DNA of 64,000 bases from Spirochaetae bacterium HGW-Spirochaetae-1 (GCA_002839375.1 PGXY01000002.1:312392-376391); one strand, 5' to 3'. Shown: positions 3,990 through 12,983, counted from the first letter of the stretch. The notes: generated by a model not told the origin, from the letters alone. Translations and numbers: made by a program.

Positions 3990-4841
3990 CTACCAGGCTG
4001 CTTCCGTAAAGAGACCGCAGCTCAGGCGATTGAAGAAAGCCATGCTTCCTTCGCCTCCCATGCGGTTGTTGATAAGTATGCCCATTTCCAGGCCGATGCG
4101 CAGAAACGGGAAGGAATAGGAGTAGGCCATGTTCAGGCGCTGGTTGCTCCGCAAAATCCCCTCCCTGTTCTCAAACCAGTTACGCGGCGGCAGGAGTGAA
4201 ACGAAGAGCTCTCCGGTGTGGTGTTCCACGGGGAAGACCACACCTATGTTTATGATGGAATCGGCGGCATTGAATCTTTCACGGCATACGCGTATTTTAA
4301 GATGGATGAAATTTTCCGGAAATATCCTCGTCATGAAATTTATAAAAGCATGTGACTCCCGGCGGTTCAGGGCTATGCCGGCGTCATCTTTTTCATATTC
4401 GGAACCGTCCGTATTATAATAGGTTCTCGCGTCGAATTTATTGAAATAGAAATACCAGCTTATGCCGATTTCAAACGTGAAAAAGCCGAAATCCTTTCCG
4501 ACAAAGGCGTAGGGAAGGGTGATGAGCGTAAGCGGCTGATATTCGTAGTGATCGAAGTTATAGGCTTTTCCACTGCTGATAGATGTTTGTACAATACCGG
4601 TTCCCACGAGGTTCCCCTCGGCTGACCGGTAGCGGTACTCGCCGCCGAAGTTCGTCATGAGAGTGCCGAACGATATCATCTCGCGGTCCACGTACTGCAG
4701 GTCCGGATAACTCTTATTGTACGAACCGATTTCGCCGTGGAGCATGACACGGGACCGCGGCAAATCCCCGGCGAGGAGAGTACCTCCACCGGGAAGCAGT
4801 ACCGCAATGTATAACGCGATGACGAAAAGGAAGCGCGTCAT
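3990..4841 (-). CDS. Predicted exported beta-barrel-like protein
   Basis: The 283-residue product begins MTRFLFVIALYIAVLLPGGG, a signal peptide with likely cleavage near LLAGD. The rest alternates polar and aromatic residues in short strands (for example FGFFTFEIGISWYFYF and LRIGLEMGI), as in outer-membrane barrels, and ends in a Trp. Its start overlaps the stop of the preceding gene as TAATG, which implies translational coupling; an in-frame GTG two codons upstream is less likely because it would put the signal peptide further in. Its C-terminal half has the same strand pattern as the upstream interrupted gene, so the two are probably distant paralogues. The function is unknown. Confidence 0.72.
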   Translation of the reverse strand: MTRFLFVIALYIAVLLPGGGTLLAGDLPRSRVMLHGEIGSYNKSYPDLQYVDREMISFGTLMTNFGGEYRYRSAEGNLVGTGIVQTSISSGKAYNFDHYEYQPLTLITLPYAFVGKDFGFFTFEIGISWYFYFNKFDARTYYNTDGSEYEKDDAGIALNRRESHAFINFMTRIFPENFIHLKIRVCRERFNAADSIINIGVVFPVEHHTGELFVSLLPPRNWFENREGILRSNQRLNMAYSYSFPFLRIGLEMGILINNRMGGEGSMAFFNRLSCGLFTEAAW

Positions 4842-5791
4842 TACCACTGGTATGCTACGGAACCCGCGTAGAAGAAACTGTCCACGATTCCCGTGCGTTC
4901 GATATGCTTGTTGCGGTAATTCATGATGGAGCCGAATTTAAATCCTACGGAGATTCCCTCCCAGTTCACCGTGGGCTCCAGGAAAAAGGCATTGGTCTTG
5001 TACAGGTACCCGCCTACTTTCATTGTGAACAATGAATGAATGGGTATGATGAGCTTTGTCTGGATAATGCCGTACCTGGCATCATAGTCGCCGCGGAATA
5101 TATCCAGGGTGAAGTGGGGAATGGATTCAGCACCGAGGCGCAGATAAAAATTGGGGTATACCTTGGGATTGTCCCATATAAGACCGCGTCCCTTAACCTC
5201 CTCCGTAAATCCACCGCCTGTATACTTGGTTCTGTACTTCTCATCATAGGCTCGTGCTATTACGGTGATTCCCAGGTCTGTGGCGTACCATTTCATGTGA
5301 TAGCACAGGAACACACCCATATTAAGCCAGAACTTGGAAACCCGGTCATTGATATCTGCTGGTACCTCTTCATCATCAATAACCGGGTCATCTATTGCCG
5401 GTAGATCACGCTTTTTAATTTCTCAGTGCCGATAAAAAGAGATATTGGCTCCCCAGCCGGCTCCTTCCAGGATTCCCATGAGGTTGGAGAAATTGGTCAT
5501 GTAGAATTCCATGCCGGCCTGTTCCGAGTCGGTTTTAATATAGTCTCCCTTATCGTCGCCAACGTATCGCACATCGGTATACCCGTAAAGATGGTTGTGG
5601 TATCCGCCGAAGACGAGGAATTTTCTGCTGTATGCCGACGGGTCCTCAATTATCTGGTCTGCCAGTGATTTCTTATAGGTGTTTGTCAGGGGACTCGTTT
5701 CAGGTTCCGCAGCGAAGGTCAGGGCGGGAAATATAAGGATTACGGATAAAACAGTGAGAAGCAAGCGACGACACGCAATATTTTTCATCAT
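4841..5791 (-). pseudogene. Exported barrel-like protein gene interrupted by an in-frame TGA
   Basis: An open frame starts at the ATG at 5791 behind a CGGAG site, with a clear signal peptide (RRLLLTVLSVILIFPALTFA). It reads 122 codons to a TGA at 5425-5423 (context ISFYRH-stop). Reading on in the same frame gives EIKKRDLPAIDDPVID and then the 159-residue open stretch to 4841, with no other stop. The whole would be 316 residues plus stop, similar to its downstream neighbour. A single CGA-to-TGA change explains it, so this is a recent nonsense mutation, a sequencing error or, less likely, programmed readthrough. The downstream part has an internal ATG at 5320 but no good ribosome site there. 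Confidence 0.7.
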
Positions 5792-6019
5792 GGATTACTC
5801 CGTTATAATGAGAGAATTATGATCTGCCGAAGCAGGTCGTTTGAACGGGGCATAATATATTGCCGCTTAAATAGTGTCAATGATTATATGTGCCGTATTA
5901 GCGTCTCTTGCCGGAGAAATATCCTTGTCATTTTTACCCGTGATACGACATAGTTGAGATATGGGCACAGAGACCGGTTAACGGGATCAGAAAATGCATT
6001 TTCGATAAGGAGTAATGTC

Positions 6020-7084
6020 ATGTTTCTGCCATGGCACACCATGCTTGTTCTGTTCGGCCTGGGGCTCACGGCCATTATGCTCCTGAGCCAGGTTTTCTCG
6101 TCGCGCCGGGATGTGTGGAATCTTGTATTTTCACTCATACTGGTATGTATTGCCATGCTCCAGGCCCGGTATGTCTATGCTGCCAGCGATCTGTCCGTAT
6201 TGTATCCCCGTGTTTTTATCCCCGAGCTTTTTTTCTGGTTCATCCTGGGGCCCGTCATATATGCGCACACGGGCAACCTGACTGAAGCTGATTTTCACAT
6301 AGAACCGAAATTTTACCTGCTTCTGACACCGGCACTGGCAGCCCTTATTTTTGAATTCAGCTTTTTCCTTGAGCAGCACGCGTCAGTGGCTTCTTTTTCC
6401 GGCGACGGCCTTTTTTCGGTTTTCACCGCATCCAGGGTCGCGGGACTTTTATATCTGCTTGCCTTTCTCGTCATCTTCATTGTCAGGGTATTGCGGTTCG
6501 GCGATTTCGGCTCCATGGACCGGAAAGTACGCTATGCATTCCTGACTTATATCATTCCTGTTCTGGCTGTCATACTGGTACTCCTGGCATCGGTAACTGG
6601 AAAAGAGGTTCTGAAACGTGCGGGCTTCGTCCTGTTTACGCTGCATATGGCCCTGTGGATTGTCGTGGAAATCCATGTTCCCGAGCTCTTTCTCCTGGTA
6701 AAAGAAGAGATACGGAAAAACCGGTACGAACGGTCACTCCTTGGCGGTGTTGATGTGAACTGCGCCATGGACAGGCTCACCCGTCTCATGGACGAAGAAA
6801 AAATTTTTAGCGATGAAAATCTCACGCTTCCGATTCTGGCCGGAATGCTCTGTATGTCGCCTCACCAGCTCTCGGAGCTTTTTAATTCACGTCTTAATAT
6901 ACATTTTAAAGCCTATGTCAATTCGTACCGAATCAATGAAGCAATGCGGCTTCTTCGTGAAGAAAAGGACATGACGGTCCTGGCCATCGGATACCGCGTG
7001 GGTTTCAATTCCAAGTCGAACTTTTATTCCGTGTTCACCAGGCACGCGGGAAAGACACCCGCGGAATACCGCAGGTGTTTGTAA
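6020..7084 (+). CDS. Membrane-anchored AraC-family transcriptional regulator
   Basis: The protein (354 residues) has about seven hydrophobic segments in residues 5-225 followed by an AraC/XylS helix-turn-helix domain in roughly the last 100 residues, ending in the typical second helix (VGFNSKSNFYSVFTRHAGKTPAEYRR). It should sense something in or across the membrane and bind DNA from its cytoplasmic tail. The ATG at 6020 is used because AAGGAG lies seven bases upstream; the frame is open 22 codons further but without a ribosome site. It diverges from the interrupted barrel gene, a possible target. The ligand is unknown. Confidence 0.85.
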   Translation: MFLPWHTMLVLFGLGLTAIMLLSQVFSSRRDVWNLVFSLILVCIAMLQARYVYAASDLSVLYPRVFIPELFFWFILGPVIYAHTGNLTEADFHIEPKFYLLLTPALAALIFEFSFFLEQHASVASFSGDGLFSVFTASRVAGLLYLLAFLVIFIVRVLRFGDFGSMDRKVRYAFLTYIIPVLAVILVLLASVTGKEVLKRAGFVLFTLHMALWIVVEIHVPELFLLVKEEIRKNRYERSLLGGVDVNCAMDRLTRLMDEEKIFSDENLTLPILAGMLCMSPHQLSELFNSRLNIHFKAYVNSYRINEAMRLLREEKDMTVLAIGYRVGFNSKSNFYSVFTRHAGKTPAEYRRCL

Positions 7085-7136: not shown

Positions 7137-7970
7137 CTATTTTTTGAACTCATTACAATATACAAGAAGCACAAGGGACACTTCTTTTTTGCTGGTTTTT
7201 AAACCCTCGTCATTCAGGATATCTGTGATTTCTTCCGCTGTAGCTGCGGGTTTTTCTTTTCTAACGGCAATGGTCCGTTTGACGATTTTTTGATTTATGG
7301 GCTTATTGCCGAAGCCGAGGAATCCCGTATTGTGAAGAGTTGCTACGGCTGACTTGAGCAGCCTGTTTTCTTCTTCAAGGTCTTTAACGGAGTTTTTAAG
7401 GGAAGTAATTTCCTCCTCAAACTGGTTCAGTTTCGTCAGGAAAAATTCAGGGTCCCTTTTTTTCAGGTACTTGAGCGGATCGGTGTAGGCCTCCAGGACA
7501 TTCTCACACAGTTCCTGTTCCGTCCGGTAGGTACCCTGGATACGGACAAAGAGATTGTTCCTGGTAAACCTGAAATTGTATTTGAGGTTCGTATCAAACT
7601 GCATAAGCAGCCCGGCCGGTACATGGGGCAGGAGGTTTACCTTTTTATACAAAAACTGTTCGGGCTGAATGACTATATCAAGCAGGTCATTGGAAACGAC
7701 CATTCCAATTTCCCTCGGTTTTATGACCGTCCATGTATTAATTGATGCCAGGGATTTCAGAACATTTTCCATCATTTCCGGTGTGATATCGCCATAATAT
7801 CTCAAAGAAAACGGGAGTCCCTTTCCGGGTGCGAGTTCAAGTATGGTCTGGTTTTCAACGGTTCTGGAGCTTTTCACCTGGATTCCATGGGATTCCCAGC
7901 TCAGATCAGCGGCGGAAAGTGCCGTTATCTGGAAAAGTAAAATGAACAGTGTGCCGACTATTTTTTTCAT
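7137..7970 (-). CDS. Exported coiled-coil protein of the cyclase operon, unknown function
   Basis: The 277-residue protein has a clear signal peptide (MKKIVGTLFILLFQITALSA). Residues 25-165 look like a small mixed fold, and a coiled coil follows (EEEITSLKNSVKDLEEENRL, about 178-210). The C-terminal 50 residues are basic and helical, with helix-turn-helix-like spacing (AEEITDILNDEGLKTSKKEV), which is odd for an exported protein. Its ATG overlaps the TGA of the preceding gene by four bases (ATGA), so the two are translationally coupled. I find no family name for it; a periplasmic partner for the membrane proteins upstream is an inference from the operon. Confidence 0.75.
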   Translation of the reverse strand: MKKIVGTLFILLFQITALSAADLSWESHGIQVKSSRTVENQTILELAPGKGLPFSLRYYGDITPEMMENVLKSLASINTWTVIKPREIGMVVSNDLLDIVIQPEQFLYKKVNLLPHVPAGLLMQFDTNLKYNFRFTRNNLFVRIQGTYRTEQELCENVLEAYTDPLKYLKKRDPEFFLTKLNQFEEEITSLKNSVKDLEEENRLLKSAVATLHNTGFLGFGNKPINQKIVKRTIAVRKEKPAATAEEITDILNDEGLKTSKKEVSLVLLVYCNEFKK

Positions 7971-9310
7971 TTATTGTCCTGCCTGGATCGAATGAGTATT
8001 TTATCAAAGGGACGTATGACCTTGTTTCCCGATTTTTCCGTCATCCGCGCCCGGAGTTTTTCGCCTGAACCATGGAATTGTATCTTGCCGATATATTCAT
8101 CGTCATCCCGGAAGATGTAAGCCGAACTCCCGGTTTTTATATTGAGAACCCTGTTCATGTATATGATGATATTTTCGGGGTCACGCGGATCAATGATGTA
8201 GCCGCTCTCCGGTCTCGTCTGCAGCAGGTAATCAAGAGAATAATTCAGCCGGGATATTTCGTGGTTCCTTTCGTCAAGTCGATTCGTGAGCCTGGAAATG
8301 ACAAATTCATATTCCTCCACCATATATGCGAAGAGCCGGTCCATCTGCTGTAATGCCGGGGGGATTGAGTTTTCATAGGGGACAGACTTCAGACGCTGAA
8401 GAAGAATGTCGTAGTCATCTATATGCCTGCGAAGGAGATTGAACCGGTCCCGGGAGTAAATTCCCTCCGAGCCAAGTATGGGGGGATAGTTCTTGAGACG
8501 GTTTATAACTGACGCAAGGGAAACGTTGATTTTCTCTTTCAGTATATTCAGGAGCCTTTCGGTTTTAATTACGGGATTATATTTAAGAACCATGGCCTGG
8601 GTATACCGCCGGTAATATTGCTCAAGTGACTGCTTCTCCGACTGGTGCATATTACGCAGGGAGTTCATTTTTATGCTCTGAAGTTCATCGTAATTATTAA
8701 GAACCGCTCCGGAATCTTTCATATTGCTTTTATATGTGCTTTCGCTGACATTCATGCTTTTTTTAAGCCTGGCGATTTCCTCTCCCTTTTTTTCCATTCT
8801 CCGGGCATATCTATCCTTCAGCGATTTTAGTTTTTCTTCCTTTTCTTTTTTCAGTTCAATCGTACGTTCGTTTTTCTCATCCTGGGACAGGTCTTCGGAG
8901 AGGATTTTTTCCCTGCCGAGAGAGTAACGGTCGTGCAGCGAAATTATCTCTTCATTCATCTCGACCTTTATATTTTCCAGCTCCCGGTAGGCCTGGTCTA
9001 TTTTTGTTTCATTTTTTTTCGCTGAATCGATGAGATCTTTTATCCGGAGGTCCTCGAATTCACTTATGTTCACGCTGCGGTCCTGGTGCGTTTCCCTGAT
9101 GAAGGCGGTGTAGAAAATCGTGCTTACGAACAGGGCGCTGAGAAAGCCTATCATGAAGAAATAGAGCGTGGTATTCTTATTCTTTCTTGTTTTTGAGAAT
9201 TCGGAGTCAAGGGAATAAATCTCGGTCTGTCCTTCCGTATCTTCGATGTCCTGCGGAAGAAACCTGTGTTGAATGAGATCGGTTGATGTTATTTTGTCGT
9301 CATCTGCCAT
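7967..9310 (-). CDS. Single-span membrane protein with long coiled coil, cyclase operon
   Basis: This 447-residue protein has a cytoplasmic head of about 48 residues, one membrane span (FFMIGFLSALFVSTIFYTAF, about 52-72) and a long charged coiled coil to about residue 240. Then comes a helical region (250-375) and a short C-terminal beta domain (about 385-447) that may be carbohydrate- or peptidoglycan-facing. The gene starts inside the end of the cyclase gene (22-base overlap) and overlaps the next gene by ATGA, so all three are probably made together. The topology places most of it in the periplasm. Its function is unknown; a scaffold or signal-transmitting rod is speculation. Confidence 0.75.
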   Translation of the reverse strand: MADDDKITSTDLIQHRFLPQDIEDTEGQTEIYSLDSEFSKTRKNKNTTLYFFMIGFLSALFVSTIFYTAFIRETHQDRSVNISEFEDLRIKDLIDSAKKNETKIDQAYRELENIKVEMNEEIISLHDRYSLGREKILSEDLSQDEKNERTIELKKEKEEKLKSLKDRYARRMEKKGEEIARLKKSMNVSESTYKSNMKDSGAVLNNYDELQSIKMNSLRNMHQSEKQSLEQYYRRYTQAMVLKYNPVIKTERLLNILKEKINVSLASVINRLKNYPPILGSEGIYSRDRFNLLRRHIDDYDILLQRLKSVPYENSIPPALQQMDRLFAYMVEEYEFVISRLTNRLDERNHEISRLNYSLDYLLQTRPESGYIIDPRDPENIIIYMNRVLNIKTGSSAYIFRDDDEYIGKIQFHGSGEKLRARMTEKSGNKVIRPFDKILIRSRQDNK

Positions 9311-10971
9311 ATGCCGTTCCAATTAGTCGGACATGTCGTTGATGTCCTTTGTTTAAATTCTTCAGCCGGAGGAAGTTTGCATTTCTGAAATTTAATCGAC
9401 GCCTCTTTCCATTCTCCGCTGTAATAAAGGGACAGGGCGTTTTGGAAAAGCGCTACCTGTCTCCGCAGGGGCTCGTCCATTTCCCTGTATGGGATGGGCC
9501 AGTATATTTTCCTGCCATAGGTCTTTCCTTTTACCATTACGGTATCGATTTCGATGAAATGGAGTTTTGCGTCCTCAACATTCTCCTCTATGTCGTTTTT
9601 CACATATTCCGAACATATTATCGGGATATTGTACACCCTGGTCAGTCCTTCCAGGCGCGATGCGGCGTTGACATTGTCTCCTATAACGGTATTGGTCATC
9701 CTCAGATATGAACCAAGCGTTCCGTAGAAAACCTGGCCGCCGTCGATGCCGACACCGATTTCAAGCAGTACCGCGCGATATACAGCCTCTTCGGTTTCAT
9801 CGAGCGTTCCCTTTTCAGCAATAATCTCATCGCGTATTTTCGTCATTTTACTTTTAAGCTCGTCAACAACCCGATGGAGCGCATAGGCGGACTGGATGGC
9901 CTGGTATGATTTATTTTTATGGGTATCCTCAAGCGCGCCATAAACAGCGAGCAGTGCATCGCCGATGATGGAGCCTATGACGCCGTCATATTTGATGATT
10001 TCACGAATCGCCCGGTCATAATGCATATTCAGCAGGCGGATAATGTCCGTTCCCAGTGTTTCTGTTATAAAGGTAAACCGCTTTATATCGGTAAAGAGGA
10101 TGGTGAGGTCCTTTTTTGTACCCTCAAGTCGAACCTCGCGGTCGCGATAGGCCTTTATGACAATGTCCCTGTTGGCGAATTTCCGGAAAATGGAAATGAG
10201 GTTTCCCACGGTGTTGGAGAGGGAATTGAAGGCCAGGCCCATGTAGGTGATGTCGTCATTGGTGGCTTTGCTCATGTCAATGACGCTGAGCTGCTGCGTT
10301 TCCACCATCTTCATGATATTGCTGGTAATCACCTGGATATATCGCAACAGGTATCGGATGATAAAGATGCCGATGCCGGCAATGGCAATGGTTATGATGA
10401 TGATTATGATGCTTACGTCACGGAATATCCGCGTGGTCTCCTTGTAAAAGTCGTTCAGTTCCTCGGCCCTGAAGATGAAAATGTCCCACTTTGAATTATA
10501 CTTGTAGATGCCGAAATATTCCTCATTGTTGAACGTGAAATAGGTATAACCGTCGTTGATATTTTTTGATGATTTTTTATTGATCTCGTCCAATACCCTG
10601 GTGTCGGTAAAGAAATCACTGTGGTTGATTTTTGATGCCTGGAAGAGAATCCTTCCTTCCGGTTTCACTCCGAAGATAACGGCTTTATCGTTTTTCAGCT
10701 CATGAAGTCCTTTTCGTTCGATGCTCTCAAGGGATTTGTCAAGTCTGCGATCATATTGGTAAATCTCATGTTGATTATTGCAGTATTCATATATGCTCTT
10801 AAGATCCTTTGTAAGAAGCTGACTCATGAGATTTATCAGTTCGGTTCGGGTAAAGACGAGATTGATATAATTCGTCGTAAAATTGGAAACAAGTATAAAG
10901 ATAGTAAATACCATTACTATCTTAACCGTAACCGGTACAATGCGGGTATTGTTTATTTTTCTGCCGATCAT
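9289..10971 (-). CDS. Membrane sensor class III adenylate/guanylate cyclase
   Basis: The 560-residue protein has a membrane helix (about 15-37), a periplasmic Cache-like sensor (40-185), a second helix (187-207), a HAMP linker (208-260) and a class III cyclase domain (287-492). The catalytic set is complete: metal-binding Asp295 (ILFTDIKRF) and Asp338 (GDALLAVYG), and Asn435/Arg439 in GDNVNAASRLEG. Asp432 at the purine-recognition position favours ATP and hence cAMP. A tail of about 65 residues resembles a single TPR-like helical pair. The gene leads a three-gene overlapping operon. No good Shine-Dalgarno precedes the ATG, so the exact start is less certain. Confidence 0.9.
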   Translation of the reverse strand: MIGRKINNTRIVPVTVKIVMVFTIFILVSNFTTNYINLVFTRTELINLMSQLLTKDLKSIYEYCNNQHEIYQYDRRLDKSLESIERKGLHELKNDKAVIFGVKPEGRILFQASKINHSDFFTDTRVLDEINKKSSKNINDGYTYFTFNNEEYFGIYKYNSKWDIFIFRAEELNDFYKETTRIFRDVSIIIIIITIAIAGIGIFIIRYLLRYIQVITSNIMKMVETQQLSVIDMSKATNDDITYMGLAFNSLSNTVGNLISIFRKFANRDIVIKAYRDREVRLEGTKKDLTILFTDIKRFTFITETLGTDIIRLLNMHYDRAIREIIKYDGVIGSIIGDALLAVYGALEDTHKNKSYQAIQSAYALHRVVDELKSKMTKIRDEIIAEKGTLDETEEAVYRAVLLEIGVGIDGGQVFYGTLGSYLRMTNTVIGDNVNAASRLEGLTRVYNIPIICSEYVKNDIEENVEDAKLHFIEIDTVMVKGKTYGRKIYWPIPYREMDEPLRRQVALFQNALSLYYSGEWKEASIKFQKCKLPPAEEFKQRTSTTCPTNWNGIWQMTTK

Positions 10972-11279
10972 ATTGTGTAATTAATATAAAAAGCCTAGTT
11001 GGGCGGTATCTTAATTTAAGGTATTAAAATTTTTATTATCGTCAAGGGTTAATTTAACTTTTTTTACATTTCTTATTAAATTAAAAGAAATTAATGGTAA
11101 AAATTTTTCCGATGCATGACTTAACGATGTTTAGTGAAATGAAAATGATAAGCATTCGGCATTTACCCGAGGCATGGAAAAAGTAATTGCATAATATGTA
11201 CTCCAGTTCCATTGTAAACGCCATCTTTGGATGGCACATGTGGAAAACATTGTGGCAGAGCTCATTTTCCGCCAGTATC
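10972..11279. other. Divergent AT-rich control region
   Basis: This 308-nt gap lies between the minus-strand cyclase operon and the plus-strand membrane AraC gene, so it must hold both promoters. It is AT-rich around 11030-11110, with hexamers such as TATATT on the minus strand near 10985 and TAATAT on the plus strand near 11192, but no partner -35 boxes good enough to assign. No RNA or small gene was recognised. The open frame extends upstream of the AraC gene start through this region, so a longer N-terminus cannot be excluded. Confidence 0.4.
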
Positions 11280-12983
11280 ATGATGAACATAAGAAAAACG
11301 CTGAGAACGATGATCATTGTATTGCCGGTACTTCTCCTATCCGGCTGTACGGGTAATGTGCATGATGGAGGCCGTGAAGTCTCACTTCGTGGAACCTGGA
11401 AAATCAGCACCGCCGACAGCAACGAATTCGCGCAACGGCTTTACGATGATTCCGCCTGGGACGATATATCCCTTCCCGACAGCTTTTACGACTACGCGCT
11501 GAGAGAAACGGGCTCCGTCCGAGGCATTCTCTGGATCAGGAAACATATCCACATCGACGGTGATATGGCGGGACGCCCCATGGGCCTTATCCTGGGTAAA
11601 ATAGGCAATGCCGACATGACGTATTTCAACGGGATCATGGTGGGCTCAACGGGGAAATTTCCTCCCGGGGAAATATCCATGTGGAATCATACGCGGTACT
11701 ATATGATACCGTCGAACCTCCTGAAACCCGGCGGGGATAATGTGGTGGCCCTTCGCATATCATATTTCCTGTACAGCGAGATCCGGGGGAAACTGGCGCT
11801 GGCCGATATGGAGTCCTGGAACCGGGACCGCACGGCCTCGCAGATGGTCACCATGGTTCATTACATGGTCATGGCCATGCTGGCCGCCATGGGGCTCATT
11901 TTCCTGCTGATCTGGATCAGGCGGCCAGGCTGGAAGGAATATCAATATTTTGTGCTGCAGCTTGTTCCGGGTTTTTTCACTCTCTACGAGGTCTGCGGCT
12001 ATTACTGGCCCTTTGCCGGCGATGTTCTGACCCGCATCAAGGTCCTTGGCCTCGCGTGGACCGCCGTGGTTGTGTTCCAGCTCACCTTCCTTCACCGGCT
12101 GTATAATCTGGAAAGAAAAAAAACAGAGGTTTTCCTCTGGCTCATCCTGGCCGTCAATACAGTTCTCATCATATACGGGCATGACCCCCTGAAACACCGG
12201 TGGATCGGCATCGTCGTTATTGTATCCATAACGCCCCTGGCCCTGTATAATATCTCCATTCATGTACAGCAGTTCATGAGGGGCAGCATCATCGCGAAGA
12301 TATTGATCGTTCCCGGCATAGTTCTTTCCCTGGGAGCCGCTCATGACGGCATCGCCTATATGCAGCGTTTCGGCGCGCCCCGACTTTCCCTTCTCGGCTA
12401 CGGGTTCGACGAGTTGATATTCGGCTACAGCGCTTTCATGATGTTTGTAGGCGCCTCGGTGATCCTGGTGTACCGGTTTATGAATACCATGGACCGGGTC
12501 GAGGACCTGAACCTGCACCTGGAGGAAAAGGTCCGGGAGCGAACCATGGAACTGGAAAAGAGCCTGAACAACATGACCACCATGTTGAACAACCTGTACA
12601 TGGATCAGCGGATAAAAAGAGGGAAGGGGGAGCGGAATTCCATTTCTCCCGGCATGGAAGAAAAGGTTCGTAAGGCCGTTGTATATCTCAATGAAAATTT
12701 TACATCGGACATATCCCGCGAGGGCCTGGCCGGCTGGCTGGACGTCAACCCCGACCACCTGGGTAAGGCCTTTAAGGTGTACACGGGGAAAAAAATAATC
12801 GATTATATCAATGAACTGCGGGTTAAAAAGGCCGCGGTGTTTCTCATGGAAGGCGAAGATACTATCATACATATCGCCTTTGCCGTGGGATTCGAAAGTC
12901 TAAGGACCTTTAACCGGGCCTTTACGCACATCATGAAAATCACTCCCAGCGAATATCGCCGCCTTCTCGGCAATCCTGAATAG
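11280..12983 (+). CDS. Lipoprotein-type 7TM sensor with C-terminal AraC domain
   Basis: The start chosen (ATG 11280, with another at 11283) gives a lipoprotein signal peptide ending LLLSGC, so the N-terminus is probably exported and perhaps lipidated. Residues about 30-195 resemble the jelly-roll sensor seen with 7TMR-DISM receptors (GTWKISTADS, WIRKHIHIDG, FNGIMVGSTG). Seven membrane helices follow (about 205-415), then a short coiled coil (LNLHLEEKVRERTMELEKSL) and an AraC helix-turn-helix domain in the last 100 residues. It should carry an extracellular signal directly to DNA. The ribosome site is weak, so the start is uncertain. It diverges from the cyclase operon. Confidence 0.82.
   Translation: MMNIRKTLRTMIIVLPVLLLSGCTGNVHDGGREVSLRGTWKISTADSNEFAQRLYDDSAWDDISLPDSFYDYALRETGSVRGILWIRKHIHIDGDMAGRPMGLILGKIGNADMTYFNGIMVGSTGKFPPGEISMWNHTRYYMIPSNLLKPGGDNVVALRISYFLYSEIRGKLALADMESWNRDRTASQMVTMVHYMVMAMLAAMGLIFLLIWIRRPGWKEYQYFVLQLVPGFFTLYEVCGYYWPFAGDVLTRIKVLGLAWTAVVVFQLTFLHRLYNLERKKTEVFLWLILAVNTVLIIYGHDPLKHRWIGIVVIVSITPLALYNISIHVQQFMRGSIIAKILIVPGIVLSLGAAHDGIAYMQRFGAPRLSLLGYGFDELIFGYSAFMMFVGASVILVYRFMNTMDRVEDLNLHLEEKVRERTMELEKSLNNMTTMLNNLYMDQRIKRGKGERNSISPGMEEKVRKAVVYLNENFTSDISREGLAGWLDVNPDHLGKAFKVYTGKKIIDYINELRVKKAAVFLMEGEDTIIHIAFAVGFESLRTFNRAFTHIMKITPSEYRRLLGNPE

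Follow-up and report, generated by a model that had tools for sequence, protein, structure and literature searches.

A nucleotide cyclase and a coiled-coil membrane protein inherited as an obligate gene pair across the spirochaete phylum: a candidate two-subunit receptor

Across the spirochaete phylum, a class III nucleotide cyclase and a membrane protein from a family without a name (here P2) form an obligately co-inherited pair, and the P2 reading frame opens within the final codons of the cyclase at a single conserved position. The pair was studied in a 64,000-nucleotide stretch of DNA from Spirochaetae bacterium HGW-Spirochaetae-1 (here, the window), in which it is followed by the gene for an exported protein, P3. 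We propose that the cyclase and P2 constitute a two-subunit membrane receptor-cyclase in which P2 relays the state of the envelope, with P3 as an optional periplasmic component, and we give this reading a probability of about 0.6. That the two proteins are subunits of one complex is very probable, since they are essentially never found apart and share the conserved 22-nt overlap; their binding and stoichiometry, as well as the signal and the product of the unit, we infer.

The three genes lie on the minus strand, running from 10971 to 7137, and overlap by 22 and 4 nt, precisely as the original prediction had it. The genes for the cyclase (9289-10971; 560 aa), P2 (7967-9310; 447 aa), and P3 (7137-7970; 277 aa) all begin with ATG; the cyclase/P2 overlap occupies 9289-9310, and the P2/P3 overlap is an ATGA at 7967-7970. 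A first-start rule would place the P2 start at a TTG 12 nt further upstream, giving a 34-nt overlap; in several relatives, however, the region beyond the ATG at -22 contains a stop codon or offers no start codon, which identifies this ATG as the conserved start. Both the gene order and the overlap of the three-gene unit recur phylum-wide, far beyond chance expectation. The other neighbors of the cyclase-P2 unit vary by clade, with no flanking gene conserved across clades. In the window, two genes on the plus strand (5954-7084 and 11187-12983), read from their sequence as membrane-anchored AraC-type regulators, flank the unit, one convergent and the other divergent. Further along, at 3990-5791 on the minus strand, there are three successive ORFs (285, 159, and 122 aa) resembling envelope proteins, two of which might be a single gene split by a frameshift.

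Searches with profiles of P2 and the cyclase in 393 genomes spread over the phylum recovered a close ortholog of the cyclase in 116 and P2 in 115, with both present in 114. Hence, 114 of the 117 genomes bearing either gene have both, and the remaining three are explained by broken contigs, namely truncated cyclases (G036 and G044) and, in G219, a piece of P2 at the edge of a contig. In one genome (G010), the cyclase and P2 are on different contigs, with both retained. Excluded from these counts are 15 genomes with weak P2 matches, 13 of which are of one family of 1.2-1.9-Mb genomes; among the matches listed, these cover the coiled coil only. The earlier notion that all three genes belong to one system, which was to fall if the accessory genes occurred widely without the cyclase or gave way to unrelated genes, thus stands for P2 (114 of 115 P2-bearing and 114 of 116 cyclase-bearing genomes carry both) and in part only for P3, which is often missing and replaced by unrelated genes. 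Distances in the cyclase tree and in the P2 tree, the latter computed with FastTree, are correlated (Spearman 0.85), a value to which species history contributes, and both trees contain corresponding clades of the paralogous and the SAR324 copies.

In a scan with a narrow P2 alignment, the named contigs carrying the unit came from Spirochaetota metagenome-assembled genomes (MAGs), Turneriella, Brevinematales, and Treponema, together with some that are labeled SAR324. The last of these (L125, L134, and L137, of which L134 is labeled “bacterium” only) bear a complete unit, and both trees place their copies next to the window's family; they would reflect either a transfer of the unit across phyla or mis-binned contigs. 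Two MAG contigs labeled Caldithrix and Bacillota were rejected as representatives of other phyla because their sequences sit within spirochaete branches. A few genomes (L102, L103, L104, and L105) have a paralogous second form of the unit, in which P2 is shorter and P3 longer; in L104, its cyclase is located some 2 kb downstream.

Of 73 pairs in which the two genes adjoin, 71 have the ATG of P2 precisely 22 nt ahead of the point where the cyclase stop codon ends, a set that includes Treponema, Turneriella, Brevinematales, and the SAR324-labeled contigs. This dual-coding segment (9289..9310, minus strand) reads I-W-x-M-x-x-K-stop in the cyclase frame and M-x-N/D-D/E-x-K/E-I/V in the P2 frame, the A of the ATG being the last base of an Ile/Val codon and its TG the first two bases of the Trp codon that comes next. 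The third base of this junction codon is A in 71 of the 73 cyclases (ATA in 55, GTA in 14, and TTA and ACA in 1 each) whereas elsewhere in these genes just 21% of the Ile/Val codons end in A; as the sequences are related, a formal probability for this difference is descriptive. Of the two pairs in which P2 does not begin at the 22-nt position, one (L084) nevertheless shares the junction sequence, its cyclase frame being broken upstream in the assembly. The junction codon is ATC in two paralogous operons (L103 and L105), where the start of P2 coincides with the cyclase stop or directly follows it, and also in G010, where the cyclase stands alone on its contig; such separated gene pairs serve as built-in controls for the junction. 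The heptamer GGAACGG (9314..9320, minus strand), in the Trp-Asn-Gly codons of the cyclase, puts a GGAA 6 nt 5' of the P2 ATG, which may be the ribosome-binding site of P2; across the family, the Trp-Asn/Ser codons of the cyclase tail motif supply a GGA-type sequence at this distance. Two further cyclases encoded in the window's genome have a similar helical tail, W-x-G-x-W/Y...K, and the tail motif is therefore probably older than the junction. The overlap could have persisted because any change to it would damage two proteins at once. Being nearly frozen, it offers a clean natural example of a dual-coding, probably translationally coupled, junction.

The cyclase (9289..10971, minus strand, as for all features given hereafter) comprises a first TM helix, a periplasmic region of ~140 aa, a second TM helix, a HAMP-like linker, the cyclase domain, and a helical tail ending in WNGIWQMTTK. 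Its original assignment to class III is confirmed by the catalytic domain (residues 286-484; 9520..10116), which matches the Guanylate_cyc family (PF00211; E 2e-13; 50.7 bits against a cutoff of 21.9), as do all 23 aligned orthologs. A Cache-HAMP-type layout, also proposed originally, fits by eye only; the predicted periplasmic region (residues 38-182; 10426..10860) looks Cache-like in a reading of the sequence, and the linker (residues 207-262; 10186..10353) is strongly conserved and HAMP-like, with no Pfam match to Cache or HAMP in the N-terminal half, even at E 5 when the isolated region was searched in seven orthologs.

The metal-binding residues Asp295 and Asp338 and the transition-state residues Asn435 and Arg439 are invariant in the 23 orthologs, and this family-wide conservation argues that the cyclase is probably an active enzyme. 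With the roles of the base-recognizing positions taken from the class III literature (PMC4215837), the Lys position is Ser334 in the window cyclase and the Asp/Thr position is Thr428. Ser334 aligns opposite the Lys of solved photoactivated cyclases, and a script reading this position found 63 operon cyclases with Ser and 8 with Ala; neighboring paralogs and the readable other cyclases of the window's genome keep Lys. Of the adenine-recognizing pair that marks ATP-specific adenylyl cyclases, the family therefore lacks the Lys, with Thr428 present, and we accordingly file the protein as a class III nucleotide cyclase rather than as an adenylyl cyclase. As the base-recognizing Lys is replaced while the metal and transition-state residues are kept, the product is uncertain and not predictable.

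The description of P2 (7967..9310; 447 aa) as a single-span coiled-coil membrane protein is borne out by an AlphaFold2 model (50-sequence alignment; mean pLDDT of 83), in which a cytosolic N-terminus is followed by one membrane helix (residues 47-75; 9086..9172), long periplasmic coiled coils whose helices span some 55 residues, and, at the C-terminus, a small beta barrel (residues 370-439; 7994..8203; also from the fold search). The most conserved segment is the cytosolic juxtamembrane motif YxLxxEFxKTxKN (residues 31-46; 9173..9220), with a mean pairwise identity of 0.57 as against about 0.2 in the coiled coils; the barrel reaches 0.31. Since the most conserved stretch is cytosolic, a cytosolic contact is suggested, most simply with the cyclase, and residues 31-46 are a likely docking site on it. 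In their general shape, MreC and the periplasmic adaptor proteins, which combine a single TM helix with a coiled coil and a beta barrel, are comparable in our view, yet neither Pfam nor NCBIfam matches the sequence of P2, and the PDB gives nothing by sequence or by fold at an E value below 0.001. A weak fold resemblance of the barrel to the N-terminal barrel of F1/FliI has an E value above this threshold and was set aside. Pfam and NCBIfam were run on the window proteins, and Pfam additionally on the P2 and P3 families; across Pfam, NCBIfam, PADLOC, and PDB, the candidates obtained for the two proteins were rejected as weak coiled-coil or small-domain likeness only. Both accessory families are thus new to these collections, as anticipated.

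For P3 (7137..7970; 277 aa), which had been taken for an exported coiled-coil protein, the AlphaFold2 model (39-sequence alignment; mean pLDDT of 91) shows a signal-peptide helix and after it an alpha/beta domain and a long helix; the C-terminal domain is tri-helical and HTH-like (residues 227-272; 7155..7292; AlphaFold2 and fold search). No Pfam or NCBIfam family was found for the window protein and no convincing PDB match by sequence or fold. A homeodomain-like C-terminus is unusual for the periplasm; two relatives match Pfam HTH_32, and the fold resembles that of Pax-6, a match discarded for an E value above 0.001. A search of the 393 genomes with the single window protein found P3 in 69; with a single exception, a weak stretch, these belong to the P2-bearing set. 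Treponema loci lack it, as do some members of the window's own family and other lineages; there, P2 is followed by unrelated genes. We accordingly regard P3 as a putative optional periplasmic element, and its dispensability in many lineages counts against the model proposed here.

Under this model, the overlap would couple translation such that the cyclase and P2 are made together at the membrane in a fixed ratio. The juxtamembrane motif of P2 would dock on the HAMP-like region or the tail of the cyclase, with the periplasmic rod and its terminal barrel extending into the envelope, where P3, when present, would bind. A change in the envelope, such as a ligand, a load, or contact with the wall, the outer membrane, or another protein, might then shift the rod of P2 and thereby move the HAMP-like linker in the dimeric cyclase, so that cyclic nucleotide synthesis rises or falls. 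The product would probably be cAMP or another cyclic nucleotide, made in a pocket without the usual Lys.

Obligate co-occurrence is also compatible with a role for P2 as a chaperone or in localization. In particular, P2 might be a scaffold or tether that stabilizes the cyclase or fixes it at a site in the envelope (the pole, the flagellar base, or the division site) and carries no signal, with sensing left to the periplasmic domain of the cyclase itself. A long coiled-coil rod with a terminal barrel indeed resembles a spacer or anchor, and a conserved cytosolic motif is what docking would call for; further, the photoactivated adenylyl cyclase of Leptospira, which is located at the cell poles and controls motility, indicates that location can matter in spirochaetes (PMC9043183). 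However, a scaffold alone leaves the conservation of the barrel and the frequent presence of P3 unexplained, and we consider it unlikely. Another alternative bears on the product and is compatible with the architecture of the receptor-cyclase model, namely that the enzyme is altered or inactive toward ATP (a pseudo-enzyme or a guanylyl or pyrimidine cyclase), such that the output of the module is not cAMP. The replacement of Lys by Ser or Ala, seen against paralogs that keep it, could alter or abolish activity, and in a mycobacterial cyclase changes at the Lys/Asp positions shift the ATP/GTP preference, activity not being abolished (PMC4215837). PADLOC models of the Pycsar cyclases also match the catalytic domain (E 9e-13), though the class III fold is shared. 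The conserved catalytic residues argue for an active enzyme, and no Pycsar effector lies beside the cyclase, whose neighbors vary; we consider this alternative less likely than not.

The same PADLOC matches raise the specter of a Pycsar-like antiphage defense unit. Here, however, the cyclase (the counterpart of PycC) has a transmembrane sensor architecture, no known effector is encoded (neither P2 nor P3 has a convincing PADLOC match, the best for P3 being GajB at E 0.005, and the other neighbors are clade-variable), and the distribution is phylum-wide and mostly follows clades, making such a role highly improbable. As for chance or hitchhiking of three unrelated genes, nothing favors it for the cyclase-P2 pair, and only P3 is variably present; it is contradicted by the phylum-wide co-occurrence, the conserved overlap, and the junction codon, and we rejected it as having a negligible probability. 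A bolder extension of the two-subunit receptor-cyclase, which we think rather improbable, envisages an ancient phylum-wide complex with a non-adenine-type pocket, an unexpected cyclic nucleotide, control by the membrane rod, and a dual-coding junction preserved since the early history of the phylum.

Class III cyclases are generally regarded as receptors complete in themselves. Those with an N-terminal membrane sensor (PF00211) share with the window cyclase the catalytic domain, the metal and transition-state residues, and the TM-periplasm-TM-linker-cyclase layout; the latter differs in its Ser/Ala in place of Lys, in the lack of a Cache or HAMP domain recognizable by Pfam, and in its obligate partner gene that starts in its last codons. 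A functional parallel is offered by QseG-QseE and CpxP-CpxA, where envelope or periplasmic proteins encoded beside an inner-membrane signaling enzyme modulate it (PMC12691602, PMC4160245). The likeness is one of working principle and, as for QseG-QseE (PMC12691602), of gene layout, rather than of membership; P2 too is encoded with its enzyme (114 of 117 genomes), but the output here is a cyclase and not a kinase, P2 is itself an inner-membrane protein with a conserved cytosolic motif, and no sequence relation was seen. In the literature searched, the coverage of which was partial, we found no description of the cyclase-P2-P3 unit. A cyclase with a dedicated membrane partner would add a receptor-plus-subunit type to bacterial cyclic nucleotide signaling and would give a testable role to two unnamed protein families. 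As the pair is found in about 30% of the sampled genomes of the phylum, treponemes included, it would also indicate that an envelope signal is conserved in a group where the inputs of such signaling are largely obscure.

In Treponema pallidum, the strongly recognized syphilis antigen Tp0486 carries the annotation Borrelia-like p83/100 antigen (PMC2408589, PMC13343974). Tp0484 was considered as mviN, which would have matched a murJ-like neighbor in other treponemes, and was dropped, as the literature gives mviN as TPANIC_0516. Solely as a lead, Tp0486 may be the P2 of T. pallidum, and Tp0485, which we take to be annotated as an adenylate cyclase, would fit with it as a cyclase-P2 pair.
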